Below, in pieces: positions 4,187-64,000 of a DNA stretch of 64,000 nt. Origin of the DNA: Cymbomonas tetramitiformis (Eukaryota > Chlorophyta > Pyramimonadophyceae > Pyramimonadales > Pyramimonadaceae); NCBI GenBank assembly GCA_001247695.2, contig LGRX02025931.1, positions 40,939-104,938 of the forward strand, read 5' to 3'. Under the pieces are notes generated by a model. It did no database searches. It was not told where the DNA came from and worked only from the letters and a program-made list of their open reading frames with translations. Position 1 is the first letter of the stretch, and each line of letters opens with the position of its first letter. Made by a program: the position numbers and the translations under genes.

Positions 4187-4352
4187 GGCTTCGGGGTACG
4201 GACTCTTCGGCTGACCGAGATGGACGTCGGGCTCTCATCGACATCATCAATGGGAGCGTGCCGGCAGCCCTACGCGAGAGCCACCAGCAGGAGCACGCGG
4301 CTCTTCGTTATCCCGCAGGCGTTGACCCGCAGCCGATCTTGGCTCGTGACGC
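4187..4352 (+). pseudogene. Fragment of a Copia-like gag (same family as the ORF at 43.7-46.0 kb)
   Basis: In the plus frame this reads TGTDSS-type sequence through DGRRALIDII, an ALRES-QQEHAALRYPA stretch and VDPQPILA. It matches closely the Gag core encoded on the minus strand near 45.4-45.55 kb (DGRRALIDIIKG, EEHAALRYPA, VDPQLILA). Only about 55 codons remain. The match stops abruptly at about 4352, where the antisense reverse transcriptase of the Ty3-like element begins. Confidence 0.8.
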
Positions 4353-6586
4353 ATGGGCTCACCCACCAAGCCCTTGTAGTAGTTCATGAGCCCAAGGATG
4401 GAGCGTACCCCAGTCTTGTCCTCGGGCTTGGGCAACTCTTGGATTGCCTTGCACTTGATGTCCTGCGCACCAATGGTGTTGTAACCAATACGGTAGCCCA
4501 AGAAGTCCACAGTGGCTGCCCCGAAGGTCGATTTGCCCGAGTGCAGTCGGATCCCTGCATCCCCCAAGGTGCGAAGCACGGCCTCTACATCCTTGATGTG
4601 CTGCTCAGCAGTGTCTGAGTATAAGCACACGTCGTCAACGTACGCCACCGTACAGTGCTGTAGGTGACGCAGCTCGTAGTCCATGATCCTGATGAAGGCG
4701 GCCGTCGCTCCAGCTGCTCCAAATGGCATGGAAGTGTAGCGATGGAGCTGATTGCCCCACCAGAACGCTGTCTTGTCCCTGTCCTCCTCGGTGGTCATGG
4801 GAATCTGGTGAAAAGCCTTGGTCGCGTCCAGAGTTGTCTTGAACTTGGCCTTGGCCACGCGCTGGTAGAGCTCCTCTGGTCGGTGAGGCAGCGTGTTGTC
4901 CTTCAGCGACAACCGGTTCGTGTTCCGGAGGTCGACACAGAAACGTGTAGAAGTCCACTGTCCAGTTTCATGGTCCTTCTTCCCTGCGACCACCACGTTG
5001 CTGGCGTGTCGACAGTGCTGTGAAGCTGGCTCGATGAAGCCGTACTCCAACAGCTCCTTGCAGTGCAGGTCGATAATATCCTGCTCTCCCGGGCTGTACT
5101 TCCTCGGTCGCTGGTAAGCTACCTTGGTCTCGTCCTTGAAAGGGATGGCGAAAGTCATCGCATGCGCTGCCCCTCCATGGTAGCCCTTGATGTCCTGCGG
5201 TCTGTTGGCGAAGCAATAGCTGCACCTTCTAACCACGTCGCGCATTTCTTCCCAGTTCTCCTCGGTGAACTCAGGGTGTCCTCCGAAAGTGGCGTTGAGC
5301 TCCGTGTCCAACCACGCGGCCTCGTCCTTGGTGACTTTAGTGGTCCCCCCTGGCTGTAGCGTGTCTAGCACCGTGTGCGGAAGCACCTCGTCTCGCTCCG
5401 CCACCATGGCTTCCCACCCCGTGTCCCACTGGCGTGAGGACCTCTGGTCGTCCCAGGTGGTTCTGGAAGAACTCTGCAGCGGGTCAGGGCACGAACCCGT
5501 AGCGGGTAGACCCTGAAACCCTCCAGGAGCCACGGTGGCCACCCAAGCAGCAGCCGCAAGCAGCAACAAAAGTTTTAAAATTCTGCTGGCTCCCATAGGT
5601 TTGACTGGAGAGTGCAGGGTCAGTATGCAAGTCAGCATCCTCCACCCCCCGTGCATACGGCCCAAGCTCCCTCCTGCCGAGACGTAGATCACCCGTGCCA
5701 AGACCAACGCCACGTAGGCGAAATGGGCCACCCTGTAGCAAGTGGCTGCGAGCTGCAGGCGCCGAAGGCGGGCTGCAAAACGCGGTTTCTGCATGCGGCG
5801 CGGGATGGCCGCCAGCGTGGCTGGACCCGCAGCAGAGACCCGCTGCGCGATCGCCAGAGCGCGGCTCACTCGGGCACGAAGTGCGATGAACCCGCGCCCT
5901 CCGCTCGTTGCGCGGAAGCCCAGCAACCCATGCCTGCCAATGTGGATCGTCATCACCAAGACGCACCCCAGTGAAGCGACTGCCGCCTCGAAGTGCGCGG
6001 CGATGATGGCGAGTCCAATCCGGAGCAACGGTACGTACCATAGGCCATTCCGGACATGGTGGAACCCAGCAACCTGCCAGACCACCATGCCCATCAGAAG
6101 CGAGTGCCTCGCTAACTCCAACAGTATGTGAAGGTGCAGACGGTGATGCGTCCACTGTTGATGTGGCGCCATTCGTATGGCCCACAAGGTGCGCGCCATG
6201 GCCCTGCGAGTCATGCTGGAATGATACACCCAGAGCGCTGCCATTTCTCCAAGGCACCTCATGGCCTCCATGGTCATCCATATGACCACCACCGTCCAAT
6301 GAGGCAGCTGCGGCCACCGTAGCCGCGCGAGCACCCCCGTGAGGAGGAAGCACGTCTGCGCATGCCTCGCCCACCGTCTGGCGGCAGGCTGTGCACCCGG
6401 CTCAATGCCGGGGCTGCTTCTCAGTAGCGGGCGCGCCGGGCTGCAGCGGGCCCGGTGCCCGACTGCAAACGCTGCAACCGTGCAATTCTCTTCTGTTCCT
6501 CCGTCATCTCGTCGTGCTCTGGCAGCACGCCTGACGCACGTGATGCGCCCCTGTCCATGCGTCCGCTGTGCGCGGCCCCAGGACAC
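4353..6586 (-). CDS. Reverse transcriptase region of the Ty3-like element, with hydrophobic N-terminal part (partial)
   Basis: The C-terminal half is a Ty3-type reverse transcriptase. RFCVDLRNTN, then TTLDATKAFHQIP (catalytic Asp), then the MPFGAAGATAAF motif, then VAYVDDVCLYSD (YVDD at about 4631-4642), then FLGYRIG and LGLMNYYKGLVG. The frame runs past 4353 only through foreign sequence. The N-terminal half has several hydrophobic stretches (WTVVVIWMTMEAM, LLRIGLAIIAAHF, ILKLLLLLAAAAWVATVAP) that could span membranes, unusual ahead of an RT. It overlaps the preceding frame (6421-7686) by about 165 nt in a different phase. RNase H and integrase are missing, so this copy cannot be autonomous. 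Confidence 0.8.
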
Positions 6587-7686
6587 TGGGACCCCTCTCC
6601 AGGGCTCGGAGATCTCCTCCTGCGTTGTCCACTCCGTGGAGAGCGTTGGTGGGCTGGTTCAGGGGTCGAGTTCGTGCGACGTCCATCTTGATTGCCCCCA
6701 CGCTGGGCACTGGCGCCCGCGACACGCACATCAGCCGGTGCTGGGCTGCTGGGCGCCATGAGGCCAAGGGTCGGTGGTGACCTGGATGAAACAACCTCCT
6801 GGTCCTGTGCGGCTGAAGGGCACAGTTCAGTCTCTTGGGTGCAGATAGAACCTGAGACAGAACTCTCGGCTGCACGCAGGTCTATGACCGGCTGGTGCTC
6901 GGGTCTCTGAGCAAGGTTTACCTCTAAGCCCCCAGAACGCAATCCACTGAACAAGTCGTTGGCGTGGGACTCATCCCCAGGCTGCGAGCGCGTGTCCTCG
7001 AGACCAGCGTCTCTGGTGGTGCCCTGTCCGATCCTAACGGAAGGACGAGCGGTGGGTGGTCGTTCTCTGTACTCCCTCAAGGTCTCATTGTGTCCACGGA
7101 TGATCGCCTCCCTTTCCGCGATGTTGGCGCGCAACTGCGACATTCTGCCGCAAAGCAAAGCCTCGAGTGTGTCACCAGCCCCCACGCTGTGCTCCACGTC
7201 GTGACCCTCCGAAGCAGAGCGCTCTGACGGTGGTGATGGTGACAGCGTGCGGTGCGGGTCGGGAACCAAGTGCTCACCAAGTGCAAGGTCGGGCGAGTGC
7301 TCCGAAGCGCTGTCAACCTCCTCATCGTCACCTCCCTGTCCGCGAGGGGCGTCGCCATTTTGTCTGGCTTGGCTCGGGCTGGGCGATGGTGGTGCCCCTG
7401 AGACCTCGGGGGTGACCCCCTCGGTGGGTGTGTCCAAGCAGCTCATAAACTCGCCACACAGCCGGGCGCGCAACTCAGCTTGCCGCACTTCTTCCAGCAT
7501 CGCAGGCCCCACGAGAGCTGCGAGCGCGGATAGCGGCGCCCTGTGCATCACGGCTGCCTTTTCCCACGTCATACAAGTGCACCGCTCGAACTTGCGCGTC
7601 CTGGAGGAGAGGTACTCCAAGGTGAACACGGCTCCATAGGAGCCCCGCGTGTGGTAGTAGCCGTAATCCTCACAGAGGCAGTACAC
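6421..7686 (-). CDS. Charged, low-complexity linker frame of the Ty3-like element
   Basis: About 420 codons lie between the protease and RT regions. The start is not a true ATG; the frame opens further upstream, through about 7750, reading a plausible EPPEDLIDGPQRGTL stretch. The body is Ser/Pro/Glu/Arg-rich with RRRRSPSPG-like runs and a predicted coiled segment (AEREAIIRGHNETLREY). I recognise no enzyme domain. It overlaps the RT frame and is out of phase with both neighbours, so expression would need frameshifting, or the copy has decayed. Confidence 0.5.
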   Translation of the reverse strand: MYCLCEDYGYYHTRGSYGAVFTLEYLSSRTRKFERCTCMTWEKAAVMHRAPLSALAALVGPAMLEEVRQAELRARLCGEFMSCLDTPTEGVTPEVSGAPPSPSPSQARQNGDAPRGQGGDDEEVDSASEHSPDLALGEHLVPDPHRTLSPSPPSERSASEGHDVEHSVGAGDTLEALLCGRMSQLRANIAEREAIIRGHNETLREYRERPPTARPSVRIGQGTTRDAGLEDTRSQPGDESHANDLFSGLRSGGLEVNLAQRPEHQPVIDLRAAESSVSGSICTQETELCPSAAQDQEVVSSRSPPTLGLMAPSSPAPADVRVAGASAQRGGNQDGRRTNSTPEPAHQRSPRSGQRRRRSPSPGEGSQCPGAAHSGRMDRGASRASGVLPEHDEMTEEQKRIARLQRLQSGTGPAAARRARY

Positions 7687-23716: not shown

Positions 23717-26700
23717 TCATAGATCTCCTGGGCTGAGCAGCTCACTAGCTGGCTGCGATGCAGGCGGCGCTGCTGGAGAAGGCATCACTTTTGCTGGCTT
23801 TGTTACACTTGGCTTTTTCAGGATCTGCTGCACCGCAACGAAGCCCAGCAGTGCGACAGTCAGACCGGCTCCAACGATGAGCACCAAAACCTCGGTTGGT
23901 CCGAGGGACACAGCGTCGCTTGTGGAGGGCGGCGGTCCAATCAGTGGAACGAAAAATTCCTCCGACTCGGGCTCAGGCCCTTCTGGATAAGGTGGTGGGC
24001 GGGGACTCGGGCTGGGAGGAGGAGGCGATTTCACAGGTGGGGCAGCAGGTGGGAATAATGGAAAGAAGGGTTGTAGTGGGGGCGCTGGAGGCAGTGGTGG
24101 CCTGGGAGGTGGTGAAGGGTTTAAGGGTGCACCCGGCGGGCCATAGGGATAGTAGGGTGGAACCGCGGGAATGCGTGGGTTGGGAGGAGGAGGGGGACTC
24201 CTCGGAGGGGGGCGAGGTGGGGGTGGGCTTGGAGGTGAAGGTGGAAACCCCAGAAAGACTGCGGATGCGGAGTCCAAACAAACAGAGTTGTACTCCGCCA
24301 GGGTTCCATGCTCCCCGGCAGCCAATAGGGCGAGCTGAGAGCATGAACTCTGAGCTTGATTTCGGCCCCAAATCTGCACCGCCCTCAGGTCAAACCCGCC
24401 GTACCCGTTGTTCTCCTCCCCAAGCATTGCGGTCCAAGTCTGACCTCCGTTCTCACTCCAGCAGATGGACCCGTCTTCACCGACCAGGAAGCCGACGCCG
24501 CTGGACTCGTCCATCACCAGGGAGCTTACATCCACCGAGGTAGCACTGTCCAGGTCGAGCCATCCCACCCCACCGTCCCCCGAGTACAGAAGCCGACCTT
24601 GCGCCCCAGCAGCCCAACCTGCGCGCCCATCTGAGGTGAAGAAAACTGTGTAGAGCGGCGTTGCTGGCGTATAGCTTGACCACTGCCAAGTCTCTCCACC
24701 ATCTTGCGTCCTTAGAATTTTCCCCGCCTCCAAACTCCCGAGATATCCACCCACCACCCAGCCAACACTGGAATTAAAGAAGTGCAAGTCTTGCATCTCC
24801 ATATTTAGAACATTTGGCTGCTGAATAATCCATGTCTTCCCACCATCTGAAGTTTGGACGATGATGCCGCCGGAAGCGGTGTCGCCACCCACCGCAAATA
24901 CTGTTGAGGCATTTATCCACTGCATGCACACACACTGAACGGCATGAGATCGGCCAACAAAAGCCCACCATCATCCCAGTGGATGTGAGAAGCAAATCAA
25001 GAGCAGGACGGGGCCGTGGCAAGATACCACACACTCATACATATTCCCAACCCAAATGCAAAGCAGCATGGAAACATGAAGGATGTGACCGATCATCACC
25101 AAACAACTGCTGGTCTCTGGGTTACGGAGTAAGCGGACCCTGCTGGCATGCCCCCCAGTGGCTCACGGTCGTTGGATGGGACCCGTTGGTTAGCACACTG
25201 AACGGCATGAGATCGGCCAACAAAAGCCAGCCCACCATCATCCCAGTGGATGTCAGAAGCAAATCAAGAGCATGGCGGGGTCGTGACAAGATATTCCCAA
25301 CCCACATGCAAAGCAGCATGAAAAGATGATACGATGTGACCGATCATCGCCCAACAATAGTTGGTCCCAGGGTTACGGAGTAAGCGGACCCTGCTGGCAT
25401 GCCCCCAAGTGGCTCACGTTCGATGGATGGGACCCGTTGGTCCATGGTTATGCCATGAATGCAGTCACACCACACAGCATGGACACCCCATGTTAAACAC
25501 TCGTGCCATGCAACTTACATCAGTGTTCAAACTGCAAACATTTGGGCAAGTGAGGGGTTTGGTCACACCCGTCACCCGTATCCACCCGGTGAGACGCGGG
25601 CCTAGCCGAAAGAAGCCTGAACACTGCCATACAAGCCACACGGCACAAGTGATGGATGCTCCCAGCAAGGCCGCCCGACCACCAATGCAGCAGCAAAGGT
25701 GTTCCGGGAAAAGGAAAACGATTGCATCCCAGCACCCGTTTCCTCCTGCACAACAAATAGGCCACACCGAAGGGCATGAGGTCCACCAACAAAAGCCAGC
25801 CCACCATCATCCCAGTGGATGTGAGAAGCATTCAAGAACAGGGCGGAGCTGTATCAAGATACCGCCGATGCACACACCTCTAAACCAATGCAAAGTATCA
25901 TGGATGGATGAATGGACATATGTATGTACCAATCTCTGCCAATGGATGGAACTTGCTGGTTGATGAATGCAAACCAATGGTCTGCCATTGGAAGATGCAT
26001 GAAAGCATACACCAGAAGTGGGCACAGAGGCGCTCCCCGCAGAGATCAAGGGAGGACAAAGAGCGAGGCGTTCACGCCACCCTGCCTCTCCTTGCAAAGA
26101 AAGCAGACTAGTCTGCCTTAAGAGGCAGCGGCTGGCAGAAAGGCACCACCGCGATAGCCACACCCCAGCACCCACATCCATCCCGTGGCCGTCCCCGTTC
26201 ACAACGAGGTGCCAGTGCTTCATATCGTGGCTAATGACGCAGACACACACCGAAGGGCATGAGATCCGCCAACAAAAGCCAGCCCTCCATCATCCAAGTG
26301 GAGTGAGAAGCATTCAGGTACAGGGCAGGACCGTGGCAAGATACCATCCACTTTGACACATCCCAAACCAAGCGCAAAGCGAACCCACCACAAACACGAA
26401 TCACAGCCGGAAATGTGGGGTAGCTGGGAGCTCACACAGCAAGTGGTGTGAGGCACGCCAGCCGAAGCCAGCTGGCACACCAGCCCCCCAAAACAAGTTC
26501 CGTAACACCCTTTGATGTGTATGGAAGAATCTGCAGAACTGCTCTGCACGGGGTATCACCTGAACAGCACGCAGGTTCGCATCGGCAGTGAGGCCCACGT
26601 CTATGGGCTCCCACGTGGTACCTGCGGCGACAAACCCCGAAACAAGCGCGCGCTGACGTGGCCGTGGCGATGCAACTGAAGCACCACAAGCAGCAAATGT

Positions 26701-53250: not shown

Positions 53251-53870
53251 AATGGCTGGCTAAAGCTGTAGAGGGGCGAGCGTGGCTGAGTAGGTAGAAT
53301 GTTGCGGGGTGCCGCGTTTTCGCGGCACAACTGACTGCGTGGATGGAGAGGTAAGCGCGACGAGTGGCGGAGGAGAGTACGGAGAGATGGGTCAGAGAGC
53401 GCTGGGGCCCCCGATGGTATGCAGCATTGCGCAGAGTTTGGTACTGAGTGGTTCGCGACACGTTAAAAAGGCCATGACCTCGGACATCGACAAGCGCGGA
53501 GACCTCGACCCTACTCTCCTACTTTCCGCCCACCCCCGCCGCTCCGCATTTTTCCTCACTGCTCTATACGTCTTTACCCGTATCATTTTACCTTAATTTG
53601 CCACGCTTGCCGCTTGTTTGTGAACTTTGAGCGGATCTTGGAATCTTGCGGGCGACTTGGCCGTTTTTGACCGCTTATTACTTGCGTTCTACTTGGACTC
53701 AGACATTTTCCTTTGGAGGGTGTTTTTACTTCGCCATTACCGGCCGTGTTACCGAGTTTCGTGGGCATCGGAGCAGATTTTGAATTTATCTTGGATTTGG
53801 CCCCTTCCTTGAAGGGGGCTCACCCTTATCGTTAGGGTTTCATCCCTTCGGTGCTTCGCTTTCGGTTGCC

Positions 53871-56800
53871 ATGGCTGCCGTGGATCCTTCTGATGGATTC
53901 ACCACTCCGGTTCCGGCTGGGATCGACACGAGGAGGGCGCTTCCCTTCAGCGACGGCCCTGAGGAGCCTGTGCCCCCTACACCTGTGAAGAATCGCCCAC
54001 TTGCGGGTGATGAGACAGGCGGTGCTGTGATTGTCAGGGAGTTCCTTAAAGACTGCCAGACTATTCTCCGCGAGCCTGGTCACCGAGCCAGCATCATCCA
54101 GCAAGTTCGTGACCAGTGCCGGCCCACTCACATCAAAGCCTCGGAGTGGGTTTTCGACATCGACAAGATCAAAGGCCAAGTGCCTCGGGAAATTGCATTG
54201 GACCGCTTCACTCAAGCGGTAAAAACCCAGCTAACTGACTTCAATCTCCAGTTTGCCACGGTATTCCACCCGACAGACCTCACCACGACTGTTCTTCCTG
54301 AGGCCACTCGTATTCTCTACCGCATCCTGACGTCATTGGTGCGTGGATCATGCCTTCGGCTCATTGAGGAGTCGGCTACGGTGTCTCCGGATGATGGGCG
54401 CCGTGCATGGCTCGTCATCTGCCGGGCCGTTGCCAGGCGACGCAGGCCGTGGGTTTCCCATGGCTACCTGTTCGAGACAGCTCCGGCGATTGAGCTGCTG
54501 GAGGATGTTGACCCCGAGCCCTATATTAAGGGTTTCATGCAGCACCACACCGCTGTCCGGTCCGAGCTCAGACCTGGTGTAGAGCCTGACGATGTGTGGG
54601 GTGTGGGGTTCGCCTTGGACCTCCTCACCCTTCGCATGTGCCCTCTGTATTATAAGGATCTTCTGCAGGAGTGGAGTTCTAAAACGGCCGAGGGCAGGGA
54701 GAAGCGGGCTCTCGGGATTCAGCAGTTCACGTTGGCTGTGAAAGCCTTTCACCAACAGAAAACAGAGGAAAAGAAGCTGCTTAAGGAGAAGAAGAAAAAG
54801 GATGGGGTCTCCGCGTTGGCGGCCTCACTTCTCTCTGGGGAGTCCCCTTCTGCCGCCCTTCTGGCCCGTGCGGGCATCCCGCAGACTCGCATTGTTGGTG
54901 GCCGCAGGCGTGACGAGCCCAGACACCCGCCACAGACTCGGGATGCTCAGCCGCAGGCATCCGGACAGGGTGCTCACCGGTCTGGGGGCGACAGGGGTAC
55001 AGCTCCCCGCGCCAGACCGGCCCGCGGCGGGAAGAATCGACAACAGAACATGAAGGGGCACAGGAAGGGCTCTCACCCTTCCCCTCATGCCCCTCCACCG
55101 CGGACTCAGGGGCAGCGGCAGCCTGCATCCGGTGGTTCACCGACTGCCTTGCGGGTGACACGGGATGCACAGGGCCGCCACACGGTCCAGTGTTGGGACT
55201 GTGGCGGCCCTCACTTCCGCCGTGATTGCCCTGGAGGGGTGCAGAGTGCGCATGTGGCGGGGTTCCACCCCGAGGGCACGCCTATTGCGGACATCCTGTC
55301 AGAGCTGGATGCGGCTTTCCTCGATCCGGAGGAGGAGGTGTATGAGTCATGCTTATACTCTTACTCATTGGAGCTCGGGGAGGCACCGCTTGACCTCCCC
55401 GCGGCTCAGGCGGCTGCCGTTGTGCCGCACTCTGCCGTTGACAGTGAGGAGCCGTGGACTGAGTCGGAGTGGGCTATCTGGGACTCATGTGGCCGCTCGG
55501 AGGAGCAGTACTACGACGCTGTCAACCGCTTCAACTCGTACCAGGACCCTGACGATGGGGACTGCCCCGACGGTGAGATGACACCTACTCAGCTCCATGT
55601 TGCCGTGCACCAGCCTTCGGACCCTGCAGTGTCTCTGCAGCACTTCAGTGTTGAGCCACAGCAGCCAGCGGTGCCGGCAGCCGACGTGCAGATCACAACA
55701 ACCAACACCGAATTCCCTGGAGCTGTGCGGCTGGTGAGCACGGCACCGCAGTCCCGGCCCAGGGGTCCGGGTGGCCCGGGCCGCAGGCCCTATGGGGCGG
55801 GTCACTTCATGTACATGAGTCTGCTGTGCATTCTAGCATTCTCTGGCACGGCAGATGCGGTGCAGTCTGGTGGTGCCTCCGGTGCTGTGCTGGAGGTGCA
55901 CCCACGGGCTCTGGTGCTTTGGCATGCTATCACCTGGGGTCTGGCTATCTCGGCCTGTCTTCCTGCCGTTGGTGCCAGGACTCCCGTACGCACCTGGCGA
56001 CACCTTGTCAACCGGCAGTCACCGACGGGCGGGCACCAGCCCTCAACAACCCAGCCTCCGGCGGGTGAGCCCCGTACCTCTCGCCGCTCCTCACCAGTCT
56101 GGACTGCTGTTCTGGTTATCTGTAGCCTGGCCCTGTGTACCTCGGCACTACTGTTTGGGTACTCTCTGGGTCTGCGGCAGTCAGTCAGGCAGTCAGTCAG
56201 TCAGTCAGTCAGTCAGCTTACCCCGCCAGCAGGGGGGTCCGTCGGCCGTTCTGCTGGTCAGCTTTTCTCAGCTGATGGACTGGCTACCGGTGATACCGGC
56301 TTATGTCTGGTCTCTGGTTATGCTGTGGGTACGTATGCTTCTGTGGAGCTTGGTGTACTGTCTGGTCAGCTTGGGTCAGTTACGGTGGTCTACCCTCTGG
56401 TACCCGCTGGCTATACTGGTATTCTGGTCTATGGCAGTGCAGAGTCAGTTCCGTTATATGTGCCCGACGAGGAGTGGGCTGCTTCTGGATTCAGTTCTCT
56501 GGCCAGTGCTGTCCCTGCACCCGTCCGGGTTGACAGGGGCATCGTGTGTGACTCTGGAGCCACATGTGTCATGTGCGGGGACCTGTCGGCCTGCACCGAC
56601 GTGGACTACACCCGTACGGTGGCCTTCACCATGGTCACGGCTGGGTCTCACAGGACGGATGCTACTGTGACATTCCATATGTATGGGGTCTGTATCCAGG
56701 ACGGAGCCATCGACCACTTCGTTCTCCCAAACTCACACTATAAAGCCGGCTGCCGCACTCTCCTGTCTTCTCGGGTTATGCTTTCCCTCGGCTTCGGGTC

Positions 56801-59219
56801 CCCTGACCTTGTGTCCCTCACTTACACCCACCTGCCTACTGGCCGTGTCTATCGGATCATTGACTCTGGCACAGACTATATGTGGGCGGAGGTCCCTGAG
56901 GGGGCGGCCAGTGCACTCACCCAGACTGTCTCACGTGTCCGCACCGGTGAGATCTGTGACTGGATGTGGGCACGCTCAGAGTATGCCAAGTGGGCTTTCC
57001 TGAAGGGCTCGCCTGCTGCCCTGGCCAAGACCGGGGAACACAACTTTGACATCTCCCTCTTCGGAGACGACCTCCCCCCCGGCGTGGGTAACAACCAGAC
57101 CTGCCCGGTCAGGTATTCACTGTCTGATTCCTGCTGGGGTCACCTCTGGGCCGGTGCCTATATATATGGCAACCCGCCCTTTGACAAACTCACCTGTGAG
57201 CGGATGCTCAAGAAGGCCAACCGGGACTTTGCAACCGACCCCGAGCACACGGTATTCCTCTTCTTGATTCCCCAGTCACACCTCAGTACCTTCAGGCAGC
57301 ACCTTATTCACTGGGAGGTGCTACATGTGTATCCGGCTGGCACAGAGGGCATATTCAGCTACCGTCGTGAGCACACCTATGCTGGACGGCCCCTTCAGTC
57401 GGCTGGCTCGGAGGGCGGGGGGGACCGTGTCTTCATTGCTGGTACCCCGTTCCCGGTGGCTATCATCTACCGTGATCAGTACACGTCCATGAGGTTCACC
57501 CCTGAGAGGTGGTGCCATTCCGCATATGCTCATGCTCATGGTCTCAGGCTGGCTCAGCTCATGGACCTTGGTGTTGACATCGCCCGGCCTGGCACTACAG
57601 TTACCCGGGAGCAGCTGCTGTCTCACAGGACCTGTGCTGAGGCCTGTGCTGTGTGTGCCCGTATGCGGACAGTGCAGCCGAGTCCGAAGCACCCTCCGGC
57701 TGACAGATACAGAGCTCAGAAGCCTGGGTCTATGTGGGCTGCTGATGCTACAGGCCCGATCACGCCTATTGGCTATGACGGGTCGAGGTACCGCTGGACC
57801 TTTGTGGAGTTCACTGTGAGGTTTACACTTTGCTACTTCTCTGCTGAGAAGTCGGCATACAGCTTCATCCTGGCTCAGTTCCTGGCAGATGTTGTTCATC
57901 ACGGCTTTGCCTGCACTGGCCTGGTTCTCCGCACTGATTGTGCCCCGGAGCTGTGTGACCCTGCAGCACAGGCTCTGTACAAACACCATGGCATCAAACA
58001 CCTGCAGTCGTCACCCACCCTGCACTGGCAGAACTTCATGGCTGAATATGTGATTGGTAAGATCTCGTCGGTCTCCCGTGCACTCCTGGAGACAGCCGGT
58101 ATGGACCTCACCTACTGGCCTCTTGCAGACAGTCATGCCTGCCTGCTATGGGATATCCTGCCTCATGGGCGGGACGCCGTGGTGCCATTCTATCACCTTA
58201 TGGGCTATCACTTTACCTACTCCCGTATCGAGATATTCGGCACCCTGTGCACTGTGGCCATGGATGCTCAGCAGATGCGGGCCCGCCATCCGGGGGTCTC
58301 CAAGAAGCGGACCCCCCGGGCCTGGCAGGGGCGGTTTGTGGGCATCAGCCTCAGGTCCTCGGCCTACAAGGTACTGGACCTGGAGAGGAACAAGGTTGTT
58401 TCCGAGGGCCGGCCAGACTTCATCAGAAACTACTCAGAGTTCGGGCAGGTGATGTCATCGTTCCCTGCCCCCGCTCCCGACGAGCAGCACTCCGCACCCG
58501 TGCCCAGTGACAGGCCGGAGCCGTGGAAGGACTACACCACTGACATGGTGGTGACAGTCCATTCCGTGGCTGCCTATTATGACACCCGGGACGGTGAGAC
58601 CTATGCCACCGTGCAGTTGCTTGACACTGGTTCAGCAGACACTTTCTGGACCACCGCCCAGCAGTATGTCATGGCTGACCCTGCGGGCACTGCTTGGTTT
58701 GACTTGGTCCACTGGCTGGACCGCCGCAGGGTCATTGACTGTGTCAATCAACACTACCCGCTCTGGACTCTGGCTAAGGCTCAGGAGGCCCGCGGTGATC
58801 CGCTGTATCCGGCACTCATTGTGTCCACGGACATGAGGCGGTCCAGGTCCTATGGGGTGCTCTTCCGGCCTATGGCCTACGGTGATGTGACTGCCCCACG
58901 TGCCTATGCCATGGACCTCCGTGCCAGTCTGGTGGTGTTCCCTGATACCCACAGTGCTTGCCACCTTCCCTTCTCCGACCACCCGGAGCAGGACCAGTGG
59001 CTCCTTCCGCACTATGTGGTCCCACCAGAGGACACGGTCGGTACATTGCCAGCCAGCGGCACACTCAGCTTCTGTCATATCTCTGCTGACCTTGACGGCG
59101 CTGAGACAGTGGGCAGGACCGCCGGGATGGCCGCCGGTCAACGTAACGGTCTCCAACATGGGGGTCGCACACCAACGGGACGGATACCAATGCGGCGCCT
59201 GGGTGTGCTACATGATTGA
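53871..59219 (+). CDS. Copia-like polyprotein: Gag, hydrophobic region, protease, integrase (truncated before RT)
   Basis: 1782 codons from an ATG in good context (GCCATGG). Gag core about 1-330 (VSPDDGRRAWLVI); CCHC knuckle CWDCGGPHFRRDC at 441-453. Hydrophobic stretches lie at about 645-664 (MSLLCILAFSGTADAV), 680-702 (ALVLWHAITWGLAISA) and 746-767 (AVLVICSLALCTSALLF). A (CAGT)n tract encoding QSVSQSVS follows. The Copia-type protease has its DSGA at 894. The integrase has an HRTCAEACAVCARM zinc region and catalytic D1292 (AADATG), D1356 (RTDCAPE) and E1392 (FMAEY), i.e. D,D35E, then IFGTLCTV and WQGRFVGISLRSSAYKVLD, which are typical of Copia. Protease, integrase, then RT is the Copia order, but homology ends near residue 1745 where the next element begins. 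The last codons are probably foreign. Confidence 0.85.
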   Translation: MAAVDPSDGFTTPVPAGIDTRRALPFSDGPEEPVPPTPVKNRPLAGDETGGAVIVREFLKDCQTILREPGHRASIIQQVRDQCRPTHIKASEWVFDIDKIKGQVPREIALDRFTQAVKTQLTDFNLQFATVFHPTDLTTTVLPEATRILYRILTSLVRGSCLRLIEESATVSPDDGRRAWLVICRAVARRRRPWVSHGYLFETAPAIELLEDVDPEPYIKGFMQHHTAVRSELRPGVEPDDVWGVGFALDLLTLRMCPLYYKDLLQEWSSKTAEGREKRALGIQQFTLAVKAFHQQKTEEKKLLKEKKKKDGVSALAASLLSGESPSAALLARAGIPQTRIVGGRRRDEPRHPPQTRDAQPQASGQGAHRSGGDRGTAPRARPARGGKNRQQNMKGHRKGSHPSPHAPPPRTQGQRQPASGGSPTALRVTRDAQGRHTVQCWDCGGPHFRRDCPGGVQSAHVAGFHPEGTPIADILSELDAAFLDPEEEVYESCLYSYSLELGEAPLDLPAAQAAAVVPHSAVDSEEPWTESEWAIWDSCGRSEEQYYDAVNRFNSYQDPDDGDCPDGEMTPTQLHVAVHQPSDPAVSLQHFSVEPQQPAVPAADVQITTTNTEFPGAVRLVSTAPQSRPRGPGGPGRRPYGAGHFMYMSLLCILAFSGTADAVQSGGASGAVLEVHPRALVLWHAITWGLAISACLPAVGARTPVRTWRHLVNRQSPTGGHQPSTTQPPAGEPRTSRRSSPVWTAVLVICSLALCTSALLFGYSLGLRQSVRQSVSQSVSQLTPPAGGSVGRSAGQLFSADGLATGDTGLCLVSGYAVGTYASVELGVLSGQLGSVTVVYPLVPAGYTGILVYGSAESVPLYVPDEEWAASGFSSLASAVPAPVRVDRGIVCDSGATCVMCGDLSACTDVDYTRTVAFTMVTAGSHRTDATVTFHMYGVCIQDGAIDHFVLPNSHYKAGCRTLLSSRVMLSLGFGSPDLVSLTYTHLPTGRVYRIIDSGTDYMWAEVPEGAASALTQTVSRVRTGEICDWMWARSEYAKWAFLKGSPAALAKTGEHNFDISLFGDDLPPGVGNNQTCPVRYSLSDSCWGHLWAGAYIYGNPPFDKLTCERMLKKANRDFATDPEHTVFLFLIPQSHLSTFRQHLIHWEVLHVYPAGTEGIFSYRREHTYAGRPLQSAGSEGGGDRVFIAGTPFPVAIIYRDQYTSMRFTPERWCHSAYAHAHGLRLAQLMDLGVDIARPGTTVTREQLLSHRTCAEACAVCARMRTVQPSPKHPPADRYRAQKPGSMWAADATGPITPIGYDGSRYRWTFVEFTVRFTLCYFSAEKSAYSFILAQFLADVVHHGFACTGLVLRTDCAPELCDPAAQALYKHHGIKHLQSSPTLHWQNFMAEYVIGKISSVSRALLETAGMDLTYWPLADSHACLLWDILPHGRDAVVPFYHLMGYHFTYSRIEIFGTLCTVAMDAQQMRARHPGVSKKRTPRAWQGRFVGISLRSSAYKVLDLERNKVVSEGRPDFIRNYSEFGQVMSSFPAPAPDEQHSAPVPSDRPEPWKDYTTDMVVTVHSVAAYYDTRDGETYATVQLLDTGSADTFWTTAQQYVMADPAGTAWFDLVHWLDRRRVIDCVNQHYPLWTLAKAQEARGDPLYPALIVSTDMRRSRSYGVLFRPMAYGDVTAPRAYAMDLRASLVVFPDTHSACHLPFSDHPEQDQWLLPHYVVPPEDTVGTLPASGTLSFCHISADLDGAETVGRTAGMAAGQRNGLQHGGRTPTGRIPMRRLGVLHD

Positions 59220-60963
59220 CAAGTGGCAGGAATGGAATAGGTCCACCACAGGAGAGAAGTGGGAGTCCTGGATCGGGCTGCATGGGCCCCCGGTGGGCGG
59301 AGAAGCTACGACCTCCAAGGGATACAGGGAAGCCATGAGAGGCCCAATCATGGCGCGCATAGGAGAATTGGAACAACGGGAGCGCCACCACGTGTTCCAC
59401 GGGGAGGGAGAGACTCATGACCCAATCTCCTTCGAGGAGGTGGATGACGAAATCCAGGAAGAGGCCGGCGCGGGGCCAATGCAAGTCGGGAGGAGCCCGA
59501 CCAGGCAGACCCAGGCAAACATGGTGCCAGAAACCCCCAGGCACGCCCGGGAGCTCCCGAAGGTCGGTGAGAAAAGGACCAGGCAGATCATACAAAGCCC
59601 CCAGGCCACAGTGGAGAGCGAGGAGATCAGACCCAGGCCGAACCCGCCTGCGCAGACGCCCCAGAGGGAAACAAGCCCCCACCGGGTCACAAGGGTTAGC
59701 CTGGAAGACGGCAGAGGCACGAAATGGAAAGGGACCGCGGCGCAGATCATGATGCTGAGGACATGGGTCCTCGCTCAATTGTCCAAAGGAGATGTCAGGA
59801 CGGGGGAGTTGTTCCAGCATGCGGCCAAAATCGGATTCCCGAGAGACGCGGTTAGGCTGATGACCACGCACCTCGTAAGCAGTGAACAGGTCGCATGGGC
59901 AACGCACCCCCCTGTTAATGACTGCCGGAGCAGGAACAGGTGGTGGAGGATCGACACCATGGAGCTCTCGGTAGGCGCTGGCCCGACGGTTGCCAATGAT
60001 CCGGAAGTGCTCGAAGAAACGGAGGAGGAACCCCAGGCCGTTGAGGCGTCCGAGAGCACCACAATCCTAGCGGTTAGGACGCACTGGGGAAGCAGGGAAT
60101 ACCTGCTCGGGCCAATTCGCCCACAAGGGGAGGCATGGGTCGAAGAGGACACACTGCTGACAGGAGGAATTGCGGGAATGAACCCGAGCCGGGCCGAACG
60201 AGAGACCGACACGTTCCACAACAAGGAGCGGGAAGCACAGCAGGCTCGGAGACCCACAGAAAGAGAACCGCTGTCAGGAACTCCCACGAGGCATGCCCAC
60301 TACTGGCCGGGGGTCACCAAGCTCAACATAGACACTGAACCCTTTAACCCAGACTGGGACGCAGCACCCTCGGGCAAGTGCACGCTCACGACAGAGACAG
60401 GCAGGCACCACGTGTTCGCACACGACGAGCGGGGCAAGATGGTAGGCGCCCTCAAAGAGGAGGTACTCGATAGGCTCTACGACAGATATGTGGCCGCGAC
60501 GGGCACGAACAGCACAGATCGGACCCATACAAGGGCGGGGGAAGAGCGACGGCGGTCCTTCGAGGAGCGAGAGCCACAGCTGGGCACAGTCCACGGATTC
60601 GCCACAGAAGTGGTCCTCCTGCTCAAAAGATATTCCTGCGAGGAGGAGGAGGAAGTCAAGAAAACTGCACTGCAGAATCACTGGACGCTCCCTCCAGAAA
60701 TTATGCAAGCGCTCCAGGAGGCCTTCGGGATCCAGGCGGAGATATTCGCGTCGCCGCTCAACGTACACAGCCACACGGCGACATACTGCTCCAAGTTCGA
60801 CAGGGACAAGATTTTTGGATCCAAAGGGTCTGCATGGGACACCCACTGGGGAGAGCTGGGCGCCTTCGAGTTCAATCCGGAGTACACAGCGGCAGACCTG
60901 GACAAAGCGCTTCAGGAGGCCCTGATGTCCACCATGGCGAAAACCCGCCGGTACTGGGGGTAG
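59115..60963 (+). CDS. Ulp1-protease C-terminus, linker and first half of a PCIF1-like adenine-N6 methyltransferase
   Basis: The start is partial. HQRDGYQCGAWVC (about 59169-59205) fits the Q-x-D-x3-CG-x-[WF] end of a Ulp1/C48 cysteine protease; the upstream His and Asp are lost. A charged linker of about 480 residues follows, including a winged-helix-like stretch (AAQIMMLRTWVLAQLSKGDV). From about 60690 it matches the catalytic core of PCIF1 (the cap-adjacent m6Am methyltransferase): EIFASPLN, TYCSKFD, IFGSKGS, GAFEFNPEY. The catalytic NPPF of PCIF1 is NPEY here. The frame stops at TAG 60961-60963 in the middle of that domain. Confidence 0.7.
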
Positions 60964-63185
60964 GAATTTACCCGGCCTGGACGAGAACGCCAGCCAAGGC
61001 ATACTGCAGGAGGTATGGAGATACTAGGATACATGAATTTGGGGTGATCCCAAGAAAAAGCTTTACGTTCCTTCCCCCAGACCACTCGGGAGGCACCACA
61101 GTATCAGGCGTCACGAAGAAGGACTACAGCAACTGGGGAGTTAGGATCCTAGTTGTTGCCAACGCAGAGGGATGGCAAAAAATCTGCCCGGACCCAGAAG
61201 GGGCAGCGGAACTAGTCGGGAAGGCCCTGCAGCGCAGCACGTACTGCACGGTCCGTAAGTACCACACGATTCGGAACCTCAGGCCGGCCAACCCGAGGGT
61301 CCACACCTCGGATGCAGTGTCAGACATGGCGGCGGTTAAAAATGCGATGGAGAACGCTAGTCAATACGACATGATCTTCGACCCTCACCCGATGAGAAAA
61401 TGGGAAATACCGAGCATGTCGCGCAGACAGGGATGGGGGAACGAAGGGGGTGAGGTCCCCAAGGAAGACCGCACCCCGGAGGCGGCGAGGGCCATGAGAC
61501 AAACATGGAGCGACAGAGGACTCACCGAGGTCACGATCACGGAGTACCATGCGGCGAACACGGCATGGCCTTTGGACAAGATCAAAGAGGACTCGAGGGC
61601 CAGATGGCTAAAGGCAATGGAGCGCACTCCCATGCTCTTCAGCAGACAAGACAGGGACAGGGGACACACGGAAGTAAGGGAGAGGTTCCCCACGTGTCCC
61701 ATTAAGCACAAAACCGGACGTTCCAGAACCCTAGAGAAAATCAACAAAGCCTGGGATGCAACCTCGTTCCTCTATACGGATGGATCGCGACTGGACCCCG
61801 AGGAAGAAGGGGGGTTACATAGAGTGGGGGCGGCCTACTGGGACCCCAGAGGGGATGAAAACCCCAGAACCTGGAGGGGCACGTGGTCGACGGGTGGACA
61901 CCTCACCATCAACAGGGCGGAACTCCTGGCGATCCACGCGGCACTCAGAGCCAGAGAACGCACAACACCGGGCGAGATAGCAATCTGCACGGACAGCCTC
62001 TGCAGTATGTACCAAATACTCAACATGTTGTCCAGACCCCACACGATGGAGTGCCATAGACACAGGGATTTGCTTGAGGATATACTCTCCCTGGTCGAAC
62101 AGCATAACAGCCAGGGAACGAAGGTCTCACTCAGGAAGGTCAAAAGCCACACGGGGGTGAAGGGCAACGACAAGGCAGATGAGGCGGCCAAACAGGCAGC
62201 AGAAAACCAGGAGGGCACCACCCAAATTGACCCATGGGACAACAGGACCATGTACACGCTCGTGGCCAATGCCCGAGATGGTGAATCGATGAGGCCCCTG
62301 CAAGGGGAGGGGGCGGTGGAAAGGTATGTGGCAGAAAGGATTGCACTAAAAGCGACACAGCACAGGTCAGTGAGAAAATGGCTACAGCCCCCGAGCAGCC
62401 CGTGGGAAGAATGGGGAACCCCCGGCAGGGGAAATCGGGAGGGAGCTCTCTCAGTAGAGGGCTCTATGACGGAGAACCCCACGACCGGCGCCCCAGGGCC
62501 AGCCCAAGGCCCCGACCGGGGCCAACAGAACGTGGAAATGGGGACACCAGGGGAGAATCTCCAGGAGCCGATGCTCCTGGAGGAACTCCAGCACGCTCCC
62601 TGGAGCCAGGGCGACCCGCCGGAGCGCCGGGAGCCGGGCGACCAGGAACAGGTACACCCGCGGGATCAAGTGACCACTCAGGACGAGTGGGACCTACTCT
62701 GGGAATTCGATGAGACGCGGGGGCCGCCTCTGGACATGGACGAGAGGGGGGCCATGAACTCGCCAGACAGAGAGATGATGCAAGCGATAGAGGAGGCAGA
62801 ATGTGAGGACCCAATTGACGGTCTGTGCCGCTCGGTAATGGAGATGGACCTGGGAGAGTCGGAACTCCAGAACCTGACGGACGTTCCACAACAAGCGATA
62901 GACGCCTACCAGGAGGCGGCCCCAGAGAGAAGAAGAAAGAGAAACAGGGACCGGGAGGCCATGCACCGGGGAAACGGAGACAGGGCCGCCACAAGCCACG
63001 CAGACGCTGCCGCAGTCGAGACACACATGGGAAGAAGATTGGAGGAGCCCCCGCGGGAAATTCTCCAGGACAAGTCGATACCAGGAATATCCAATCACTT
63101 CTGGAAGGTTACTCCACCGACGCTCAGGTCCCTGATTCTAAGATGCCGGTTTGGGGTCCTCATGACGACTGCCAGAAAGCACCTC
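60964..63185 (+). CDS. Second half of PCIF1-like methyltransferase, then RNase H
   Basis: The frame (open from 60834) continues the methyltransferase directly: IYPAW, then HEFGVIPRKSFTFLPP and WGVRILVVANAEGWQK, the later strands of the PCIF1 fold. From about 61770 it is a type 1 RNase H: YTDGSR (Asp), NRAELLAIHAALR (Glu), ICTDSLCSM (Asp), KVKSHTGVKGNDKADEAAK (His/Asp). A Pro/Gly/Glu-rich linker follows at about 62390-62900, then HFWKVTPPTLRSLILRCRFG. Useful coding in this frame ends near 63185, where the zinc knuckle continues in another frame; the frame itself runs to 63287. Confidence 0.8.
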
Positions 63186-63934
63186 ATATATGGCCGAACA
63201 AATATCCGGTCCCGGACTGCGCCCTCTGCGGGAGGAGGGACACTCCGGCACACAGGCTGGCTGGATGCAAAGACGAGACCAGCATGAACATGGCCACAGC
63301 CAGGCACAACGAAGTGGCAAGGACCCTTTACGAAGCGATCAGGAAGGGACGAACGGGCGCCAGTCCGATCTGGATCGCGCACCACGCTGGGCTCGACGGG
63401 ACTAACAAATGTACCCGCCCGATACCGGACTTCGTACTCAGAAGGGGTCAGTGCCGTAGGGACGGAAGGGACCACCCGGGGGCGAAGGACCCCCCAGACG
63501 ACATACCACACTTTGTGGATATTGTCATGATCAAGGGTGCAGAGGACGTCAGGGACGCCCCCCCAGGCAGGCCGGAAAACACCCACAGGGAAGATGTGGG
63601 AGAAATCCACCTCATAGAGGTGGCCTTCACGTGGGACACTCGCTGGTATGTGTCCCTTCACGATAAACTCAACAAGTATGAGCCCCTTATGGAGCTACTC
63701 AGATCCAAAGGATATAAGGTGTTCTTTCACCCGATGGTTTTCGGAACCACGGGGTCGGTATATGAACACAACGCAAGGGCTCTCACGCAACACCTCGGCT
63801 TCAACAAGAAGGAAGCGGAGGCCCTCCTCAAGAAAATCAGTAACATCGCGGTGGAATGGGCTGCCAAGATGTTGATTTCACACAGCAGGTCGGAGAAGGA
63901 GAAGGCTCTAAAAAACAGTAAGAAGCCGCCTTGA
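63186..63934 (+). CDS. Zinc knuckle and PD-(D/E)XK-like endonuclease domain
   Basis: It starts in frame with CALCGRRDTPAHRLAGC (Cys-X2-Cys-X7-His-X4-Cys), the knuckle that follows RNase H in many non-LTR elements. Then come IPDFVL (Asp), GEIHLIEVAFTWD (Glu) and HDKLNKYEPLMELLRSKGY (Lys), spaced as in a restriction-like PD-(D/E)XK nuclease, then HPMVFGTTGSV. It ends at TGA 63932-63934 after a lysine-rich tail. It is reached from the preceding frame by a -1 shift. Catalytic assignment is by pattern only. Confidence 0.65.
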
Positions 63935-64000
63935 TTGTGCATGTGACTAGGGGCAGGCGTAACAGCTGTGCACCTTCAAATATCACGCTTCCAGTAGGAA
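63935..64000 (+). other. Start of the 3' UTR of the last element
   Basis: 66 nt after the stop with no tail or terminal repeat visible. The element end is outside the window. Confidence 0.4.

Follow-up and report, generated by a model that had tools for sequence, protein, structure and literature searches.

We analysed a window of 64,000 nucleotides from the green alga Cymbomonas tetramitiformis (Chlorophyta, Pyramimonadales; contig LGRX02025931.1, positions 40,939 to 104,938), which ends in a copy of a long interspersed nuclear element (LINE) carrying a methyltransferase (MTase) domain of the PCIF1 type. PCIF1, also called CAPAM, is the cellular enzyme that methylates the adenine next to the mRNA cap (m6Am). 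The element family is a dual-endonuclease LINE resembling Dualen/RandI, with the MTase lying between reverse transcriptase (RT) and RNase H; this class assignment follows from its domain set. Well over a thousand copies of the MTase-bearing LINE are present in the Cymbomonas genome.

The element copy in the window

The features of the locus are as follows; L021 and L034 belong to other copies of the element.

53784..59092, plus strand: copia-like gag-pol frame, host of the LINE insertion and outside the element (Pfam SH3_retrovirus 8.9e-8, above the cut-off; rve 8.7e-5, below it)
59093..64000, plus strand: copy of the dual-endonuclease LINE, 5'-truncated and frame-broken (blastn to other copies, up to 99.2% identity, L021)
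59093..59290, plus strand, end approximate: remnant of a Ulp1-like (C48-type) protease, with the box QRDGYQCGAW at 59173-59202
60592..60945, plus strand: PCIF1-like MTase core, piece 1, with FASPLN and NPEY (PF12237 E=2.8e-19; 99% identical to the L034 core)
60745-60762, 60784-60798, 60814-60828, 60865-60879 and 60874-60885, frame 1: motifs FASPLN, YCSKF, FGSKG, FEFNP and NPEY
60948..61211, plus strand: MTase core, piece 2, in another frame, with YPAW, HEFG and VRILVVANAEGWQK (98% identical to L034 core residues 119-206)
60969-60980, 61032-61043 and 61140-61181, frame 3: motifs YPAW, HEFG and VRILVVANAEGWQK
61767..62201 (about), plus strand: RNase H (Pfam PF00075 E=3.8e-17)
63054..63931, plus strand, start approximate, frame-broken: zinc-knuckle-like and R2-type restriction-like endonuclease (RLE) region (motifs; offset by blastn; fold match of the L034 counterpart)

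Similarity to the other LINE copies sets in sharply at 59092/59093, directly after the copia-like frame, and still continues at the end of the window, where the contig itself stops, so that the 3' junction is unassembled. The MTase core spans roughly 60592-61211, and a break of frame between 60945 and 60948 splits it into two reading pieces. The window copy is a truncated, dead LINE copy inserted in a copia-like open reading frame.

An earlier note, made from the letters alone, had placed a PCIF1-like MTase of a mobile element at 60690..61200. The domain is indeed there, although its core starts about 100 bases further upstream; all seven PCIF1-core motifs follow one another in the order given (60745-61181, frame 1 and then frame 3), and the neighbours are those described, with the Ulp1-type end and its QRDGYQCGAW box upstream and RNase H downstream. 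The mobile-element carrier was also recognized correctly and can now be specified as a LINE that encodes an apurinic/apyrimidinic endonuclease (APE), an RT and an R2-type endonuclease, the copy at hand being a dead fragment of it.

Homology of the MTase domain to PCIF1

Judged by profile, sequence and predicted fold, the MTase domain of the element is a homologue of PCIF1, as the earlier note had proposed. The frame at 58891-60963 reaches 69.8 bits against Pfam PF12237 (PCIF1_WW; E=2.8e-19), which is so far over the curated cut-off of 31.1 that the motif match is not due to chance, and a second subfamily of the element scores 52-58 bits. The Pfam name is a misnomer, as the profile describes a CAPAM-like methyltransferase rather than a WW domain (2020 paper, PMC7641849; here and below, statements on published work refer to excerpts of the cited papers). 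In phmmer searches of the PDB, 299 residues of an intact copy matched human PCIF1 (6irv, E=3.1e-11) and zebrafish PCIF1 (6irx, E=1.5e-8), and a profile of five element sequences recovered 6irv and 6irx again, with weaker values (2e-6 and 5.1e-5). For the predicted MTase fold, the top six matches were PCIF1 with Foldseek as well as with VIA. Across fold and sequence searches, PCIF1-type RNA-cap methylases rank well above DNA MTases; in the VIA list no other methylase family comes near the Z of PCIF1, which does not in itself exclude the others.

The relationship extends to individual motifs. Element MTase and PCIF1/CAPAM have in common the MTase fold, E.FASPLN, FG..G, the catalytic Asn-Pro and the aromatic residue of the catalytic loop. 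They differ in that the element has NPEY where PCIF1 has NPPF, showed no WW domain in the frames searched, has a substrate-binding loop that looks different and carries the domain as part of a retrotransposon polyprotein.

A dual-endonuclease LINE family with an additional enzyme

The architecture of the family can be read from longer copies in the Cymbomonas tetramitiformis assembly that we searched (G000; 852 Mb, 25745 contigs). A copy at G000:C1739 with a frame of 3530 aa (pieces L033 and L034, read separately) shows the Pfam order Exo_endo_phos (APE), RVT_1, LupA/Peptidase_C48, PCIF1_WW and RNase_H. Exo_endo_phos (5.4e-16) lies N-terminal to RVT_1 (3.4e-30) in L033, the same order of APE and RT is found in P0029, P0033, L049 and P0030, and RNase H is matched in L034 (PF00075, 8.4e-17). 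In L048, APE, RT, PCIF1_WW and RNase_H share a single frame of 3184 aa, with no Ulp1-like match listed. Frames of 3529-3533 aa occur in at least 12 copies among the PF12237 matches listed, and those of the second subfamily reach up to 5378 aa.

A putative Ulp1-like domain follows the RT in L033 (LupA 1.4e-5, just over the cut-off; Peptidase_C48 0.013), and in L049 of the second subfamily a Ulp1-like box, identified by eye, precedes APE and RT. Matches of the domain to PDB proteases are weak (best 0.0046), and the L033 domain is 27-33% identical (E 1e-10 or better) to the box before the APE in P0030, P0032 and P0033. The region before the APE in L033 itself gave no Pfam match, and its best PDB E value was 0.15.

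The C-terminal part, which holds the second endonuclease, has alignment columns with conserved C, H, R, D and E residues. The model of this region in L034 retrieved R2 retrotransposon proteins at Foldseek ranks 1-7 (best E=1.3e-6, six at E<=0.001), with a mean pLDDT (predicted local distance difference test) of 62.5 and values below 50 in the zinc-knuckle part; by sequence alone the PDB yielded no R2 match, and Holliday junction resolvases matched weakly (best 0.0053). In the PDB, the RT of the element is matched better by R2 (1.4e-25) than by chains named LINE-1 (2.8e-14). Since APE and R2-type endonuclease are both present, the family is Dualen/RandI-like. We also considered DIRS membership and rejected it, as Pfam found no tyrosine recombinase in the long element frames scanned.

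Some copies show further peculiarities. For several, the surrounding frame greatly exceeds the length of the element, which gives the impression of in-frame nesting of elements; at G000:C17766:19417-19992 the MTase is part of an 8508-aa open frame. A Gypsy-type pol frame of 1064 aa, recognized by eye, adjoins the full-length copy in L034 (6479-9670, minus strand). Residues 880-945 of P0008, at the end of the protein model, resemble cytosine methylase motif I by eye; Pfam gave no cytosine methylase match for P0008 at E<=0.1, so that this end may be a gene-model fusion.

Copy number and occurrence

The family is abundant, and other copies carry the MTase as well. A PF12237 search of the genome, with 150 of 2094 candidates scored, gave at least 151 matches. 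In addition, we scanned the assembly with a degenerate DNA pattern for [FY][EQ]FNPx[YF]T and the preceding residues, which hit 1493 places (756 + 737), compared with 0 + 0 for the reversed control pattern. The domain is also present when copies are chosen without reference to it: all six copies selected by RNase H, from among its highest-ranking matches, carry the MTase with NPEY and without stops, in the case of L056 over 139 of the 206 MTase core residues. Other copies thus hold the domain in the same place, contrary to the chance insertion that the earlier note had named as a possible refutation.

These counts bear on the simplest alternative, namely that a fragment of a host PCIF1 gene was captured by chance in one or a few copies and has no function. 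The window copy taken by itself, being dead, would fit such an origin. Against it stand the 1493 motif places, the retention of the motif in element sequences that are 40-52% alike and dN/dS ratios (nonsynonymous to synonymous substitution rates) far below 1 in diverged copies, and we consider it extremely improbable; insertion in a single copy is refuted by the copy counts. A search for the host PCIF1 gene with the metagenomic PCIF1-like protein P0028 as query identified none among 87 matches (87 of 1570 candidates scored; best E 3e-8), which cover the MTase stretch only, and several of these fall on known element copies.

Outside this assembly, every species-named match in the protein collection is from Cymbomonas tetramitiformis (nine in the first search, up to 98% identity), in a search that finds just relatives sharing exact short words and that elements of other species could escape. 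Five EukProt matches have no species label (P0002, P0006, P0008, P0012, P0019), and P0006 is 99% identical to this genome. The metagenome protein P0015 was rejected as a copy from another species, being 97% identical to a site in the Cymbomonas genome; the second metagenomic match, P0028, looks like an ordinary PCIF1. No viral source was found in a viral contig collection (queries A1, P0028 and A3) or a phage collection, and no bacterial source in GTDB genome contigs (query A3), although these scans can miss distant kin because they started from short patterns or tblastn. For comparison, LINEs account for 4.2% of a long-read Cymbomonas assembly of 914 Mb (PMC10675990).

The NPEY loop and selection on the domain

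The catalytic NPPF of PCIF1 is replaced by NPEY almost throughout the family: with Glu-Tyr fixed, the pattern still hits 751 + 735 places, that is 1486 of 1493. The earlier note had noticed the substitution correctly, and decay of the window copy is ruled out as its cause, because a loop shared this widely is the family's own motif. Compared with human PCIF1, the loop keeps Asn, Pro and the aromatic fourth residue, and the third residue has become Glu. E.FASPLNVH, RD..FG..G.AW, FNPEYT and FTFLPPDHW are invariant in five element sequences from several subfamilies (40-45% identical to the first). When P0028, which has the loop NPPY and matches PCIF1 best in the PDB (5.2e-45), is added to seven element rows, the residues that stay invariant, where the rows cover them, still include E, the SAM (S-adenosylmethionine) motif FASPLN and, in the loop, N, P and Y. 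For human PCIF1, three loops have been delimited, a catalytic one (N553-C557), an active-site one (F479-P494) and a substrate-binding one (P612-N638) (PMC10544176). The element stretch aligned to P612-N638 is unlike human PCIF1, in a part where the alignment is uncertain; FTFLPPDHW is the motif kept there among the five element sequences.

One alternative is loss of catalysis, in which case the domain would be a binding module for nucleic acid or a sensor of SAM, and the exchange of Pro for Glu would mark a pseudo-enzyme. The near-universal NPEY favours this idea, as does the finding that NPPF mutations lower PCIF1 activity (PMC6318281). On the other hand, the activity-killing mutants APPA and SPPG described in a review alter Asn and Phe and not the third residue (PMC10544176), and the element rows have E.FASPLN, the catalytic Asn and Pro and an aromatic fourth residue in common with the PCIF1-like protein. 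We therefore regard a pseudo-enzyme as quite unlikely; the enzyme may well be active, possibly on a different substrate.

The MTase part appears to have been held unusually constant by selection. In Nei-Gojobori comparisons with L034 as reference, the eight distinct places that are most diverged (ten rows, as two were retrieved twice; dS 0.43-0.56) have dN/dS values of 0.02-0.05 in the MTase core, compared with 0.10-0.12 in the stretch after the MTase, 0.07-0.12 in RNase H, 0.29 in the linker and 0.09 in the C-terminal endonuclease (one diverged row). The six copies picked by RNase H test presence and not selection, because they are close to L034. Between the subfamilies compared, the MTase is by sequence the most alike domain (50-52% identity), narrowly ahead of RNase H (44-50%) and followed by RT (44-47%; one truncated protein 32% over 57 aa), RLE (34-48%; unmatched in P0033, where the model stops early), APE (26-38%) and Ulp1 (27-33%; unmatched in P0031), in a comparison that is not wholly free of bias, because the proteins were found via MTase words.

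Proposed function

Taken together, our data are compatible with a maintained N6-adenine methylase that acts on the element's own RNA or on another nucleic acid of the retrotransposition complex, a reading to which we give an even chance. The domain would bind SAM and methylate N6 of adenine, most likely in cis on the element RNA, at or near its 5' end or within the ribonucleoprotein. Before target-primed reverse transcription, such a modification might make the RNA more stable, promote its translation or help it to escape RNA surveillance by the host. Given the altered catalytic loop, and as no cap-reading domain was recognised, the target may differ from the cap-Am of PCIF1. The substrate would most simply be element RNA or cDNA, because the other parts of the polyprotein act on these, and RNA is favoured since the nearest enzymes are RNA methylases. 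The more specific version, that the LINE family encodes its own PCIF1-derived cap-proximal (m6Am-type) or RNA N6-adenine methyltransferase with a re-tuned NPEY site and marks its own RNA in cis, we put forward only tentatively.

The same enzyme could instead work on DNA and methylate first-strand cDNA, the RNA:DNA hybrid or adenines of the target site during target-primed reverse transcription, thereby marking or protecting the new copy. As the closest relatives in fold and sequence are RNA-cap methylases, which score well above DNA MTases, we judge a DNA target unlikely.

Several observations weigh against a PCIF1-like RNA methylase acting in cis. The fold model of the MTase region is a weak one: its mean pLDDT is 55.8, with 105 of 421 residues reaching at least 70, and values fall below 50 at residues 201-227, where most of FASPLN and the stretch behind it lie; the alignment used for the model contains one PCIF1 row, P0028. 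In VIA, the model at 68-361 was paired with 6irv 193-668 over just 198 residues at 5.5 A, so that the helical domain with which PCIF1 reads the m7G (7-methylguanosine) cap is at most putative in the element. Pfam detects no WW domain at E<=1 in L033, L034, L048, P0029, P0033 or L049, and the catalytic motif has Glu instead of Pro in third position. Besides, most of the loci used for dN/dS were chosen by their PF12237 score, a choice that depresses dN in the MTase domain; a stop interrupts the MTase core of L014, one of the eight diverged copies; and near-identical copies show dN/dS up to 0.58 in the core, derived from very few changes (up to 0.86 in RNase H, likewise from very few). Finally, action in cis on RNA is something that we infer.

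Comparison with known retroelements

Dualen/RandI non-LTR retrotransposons of green algae combine APE and restriction-like endonuclease with RT and RNase H (PMC4640811, PMC8226300). The Cymbomonas element resembles them in both endonucleases, RT and RNase H and, going by these descriptions, would differ by the PCIF1-like MTase and, in the subfamily of the window, by a Ulp1-like domain between RT and MTase. A Ulp1-like cysteine protease has been reported for Dualen.

Retrotransposons with acquired methylases are not without precedent. DIRS1-like elements carry an adenine (Dam-like) MTase (PMC3266345) and share RT, RNase H and an adenine-type MTase with the Cymbomonas element, which in contrast has an MTase of another family, belongs to another element class and lacks a tyrosine recombinase by Pfam. 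SymbioLINE-Dnmt and SymbioDIRS-Dnmt3 of Symbiodinium and KnitGypsy-Dnmt3, a Gypsy element of Klebsormidium, encode Dnmts under purifying selection (de Mendoza 2018, PMC5890265). They too are algal or protist retroelements with an acquired methylase, whereas their enzymes are cytosine-C5 methylases in another architecture. Methylase-bearing retrotransposons are thus already known, those in the excerpts at hand with DNA-methylase families, and a member with a PCIF1-family enzyme is new with respect to them. We found no report of a PCIF1 domain in a retrotransposon among the open-licence PMC papers listed, judged by titles and abstract openings. Fusions of this kind might already appear in a 2016 paper by Iyer, Zhang and Aravind, which reportedly surveyed adenine methylases.

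Unlike these retroelement methylases, a PCIF1-family enzyme points to RNA. If methylation of RNA in cis is true, a mobile element would carry an RNA-epigenetic function, and a LINE able to mark its own RNA would allow a direct test of chemical transcript control by mobile elements. The conserved NPEY loop, moreover, is a natural experiment on a motif normally held essential.

Other features of the window

The copia-like gag-pol frame that received the LINE (53784-59219, 1811 aa) is open straight across the junction into the element. No RT was among the Pfam matches listed for it, as expected if the LINE insertion cut the frame off. Pfam searches of seven of the eight remaining window frames of at least 300 aa gave RVT_1 and PSII_BNR and nothing else. 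The RVT_1 match (E=1.6e-20) reveals another reverse transcriptase frame in the window, at 4247-6658 on the minus strand. The PSII_BNR match (E=1.3e-9) lies in a 417-aa frame at 23717-24970, also on the minus strand, which resembles a YCF48-type photosystem II assembly factor and is possibly a host gene.
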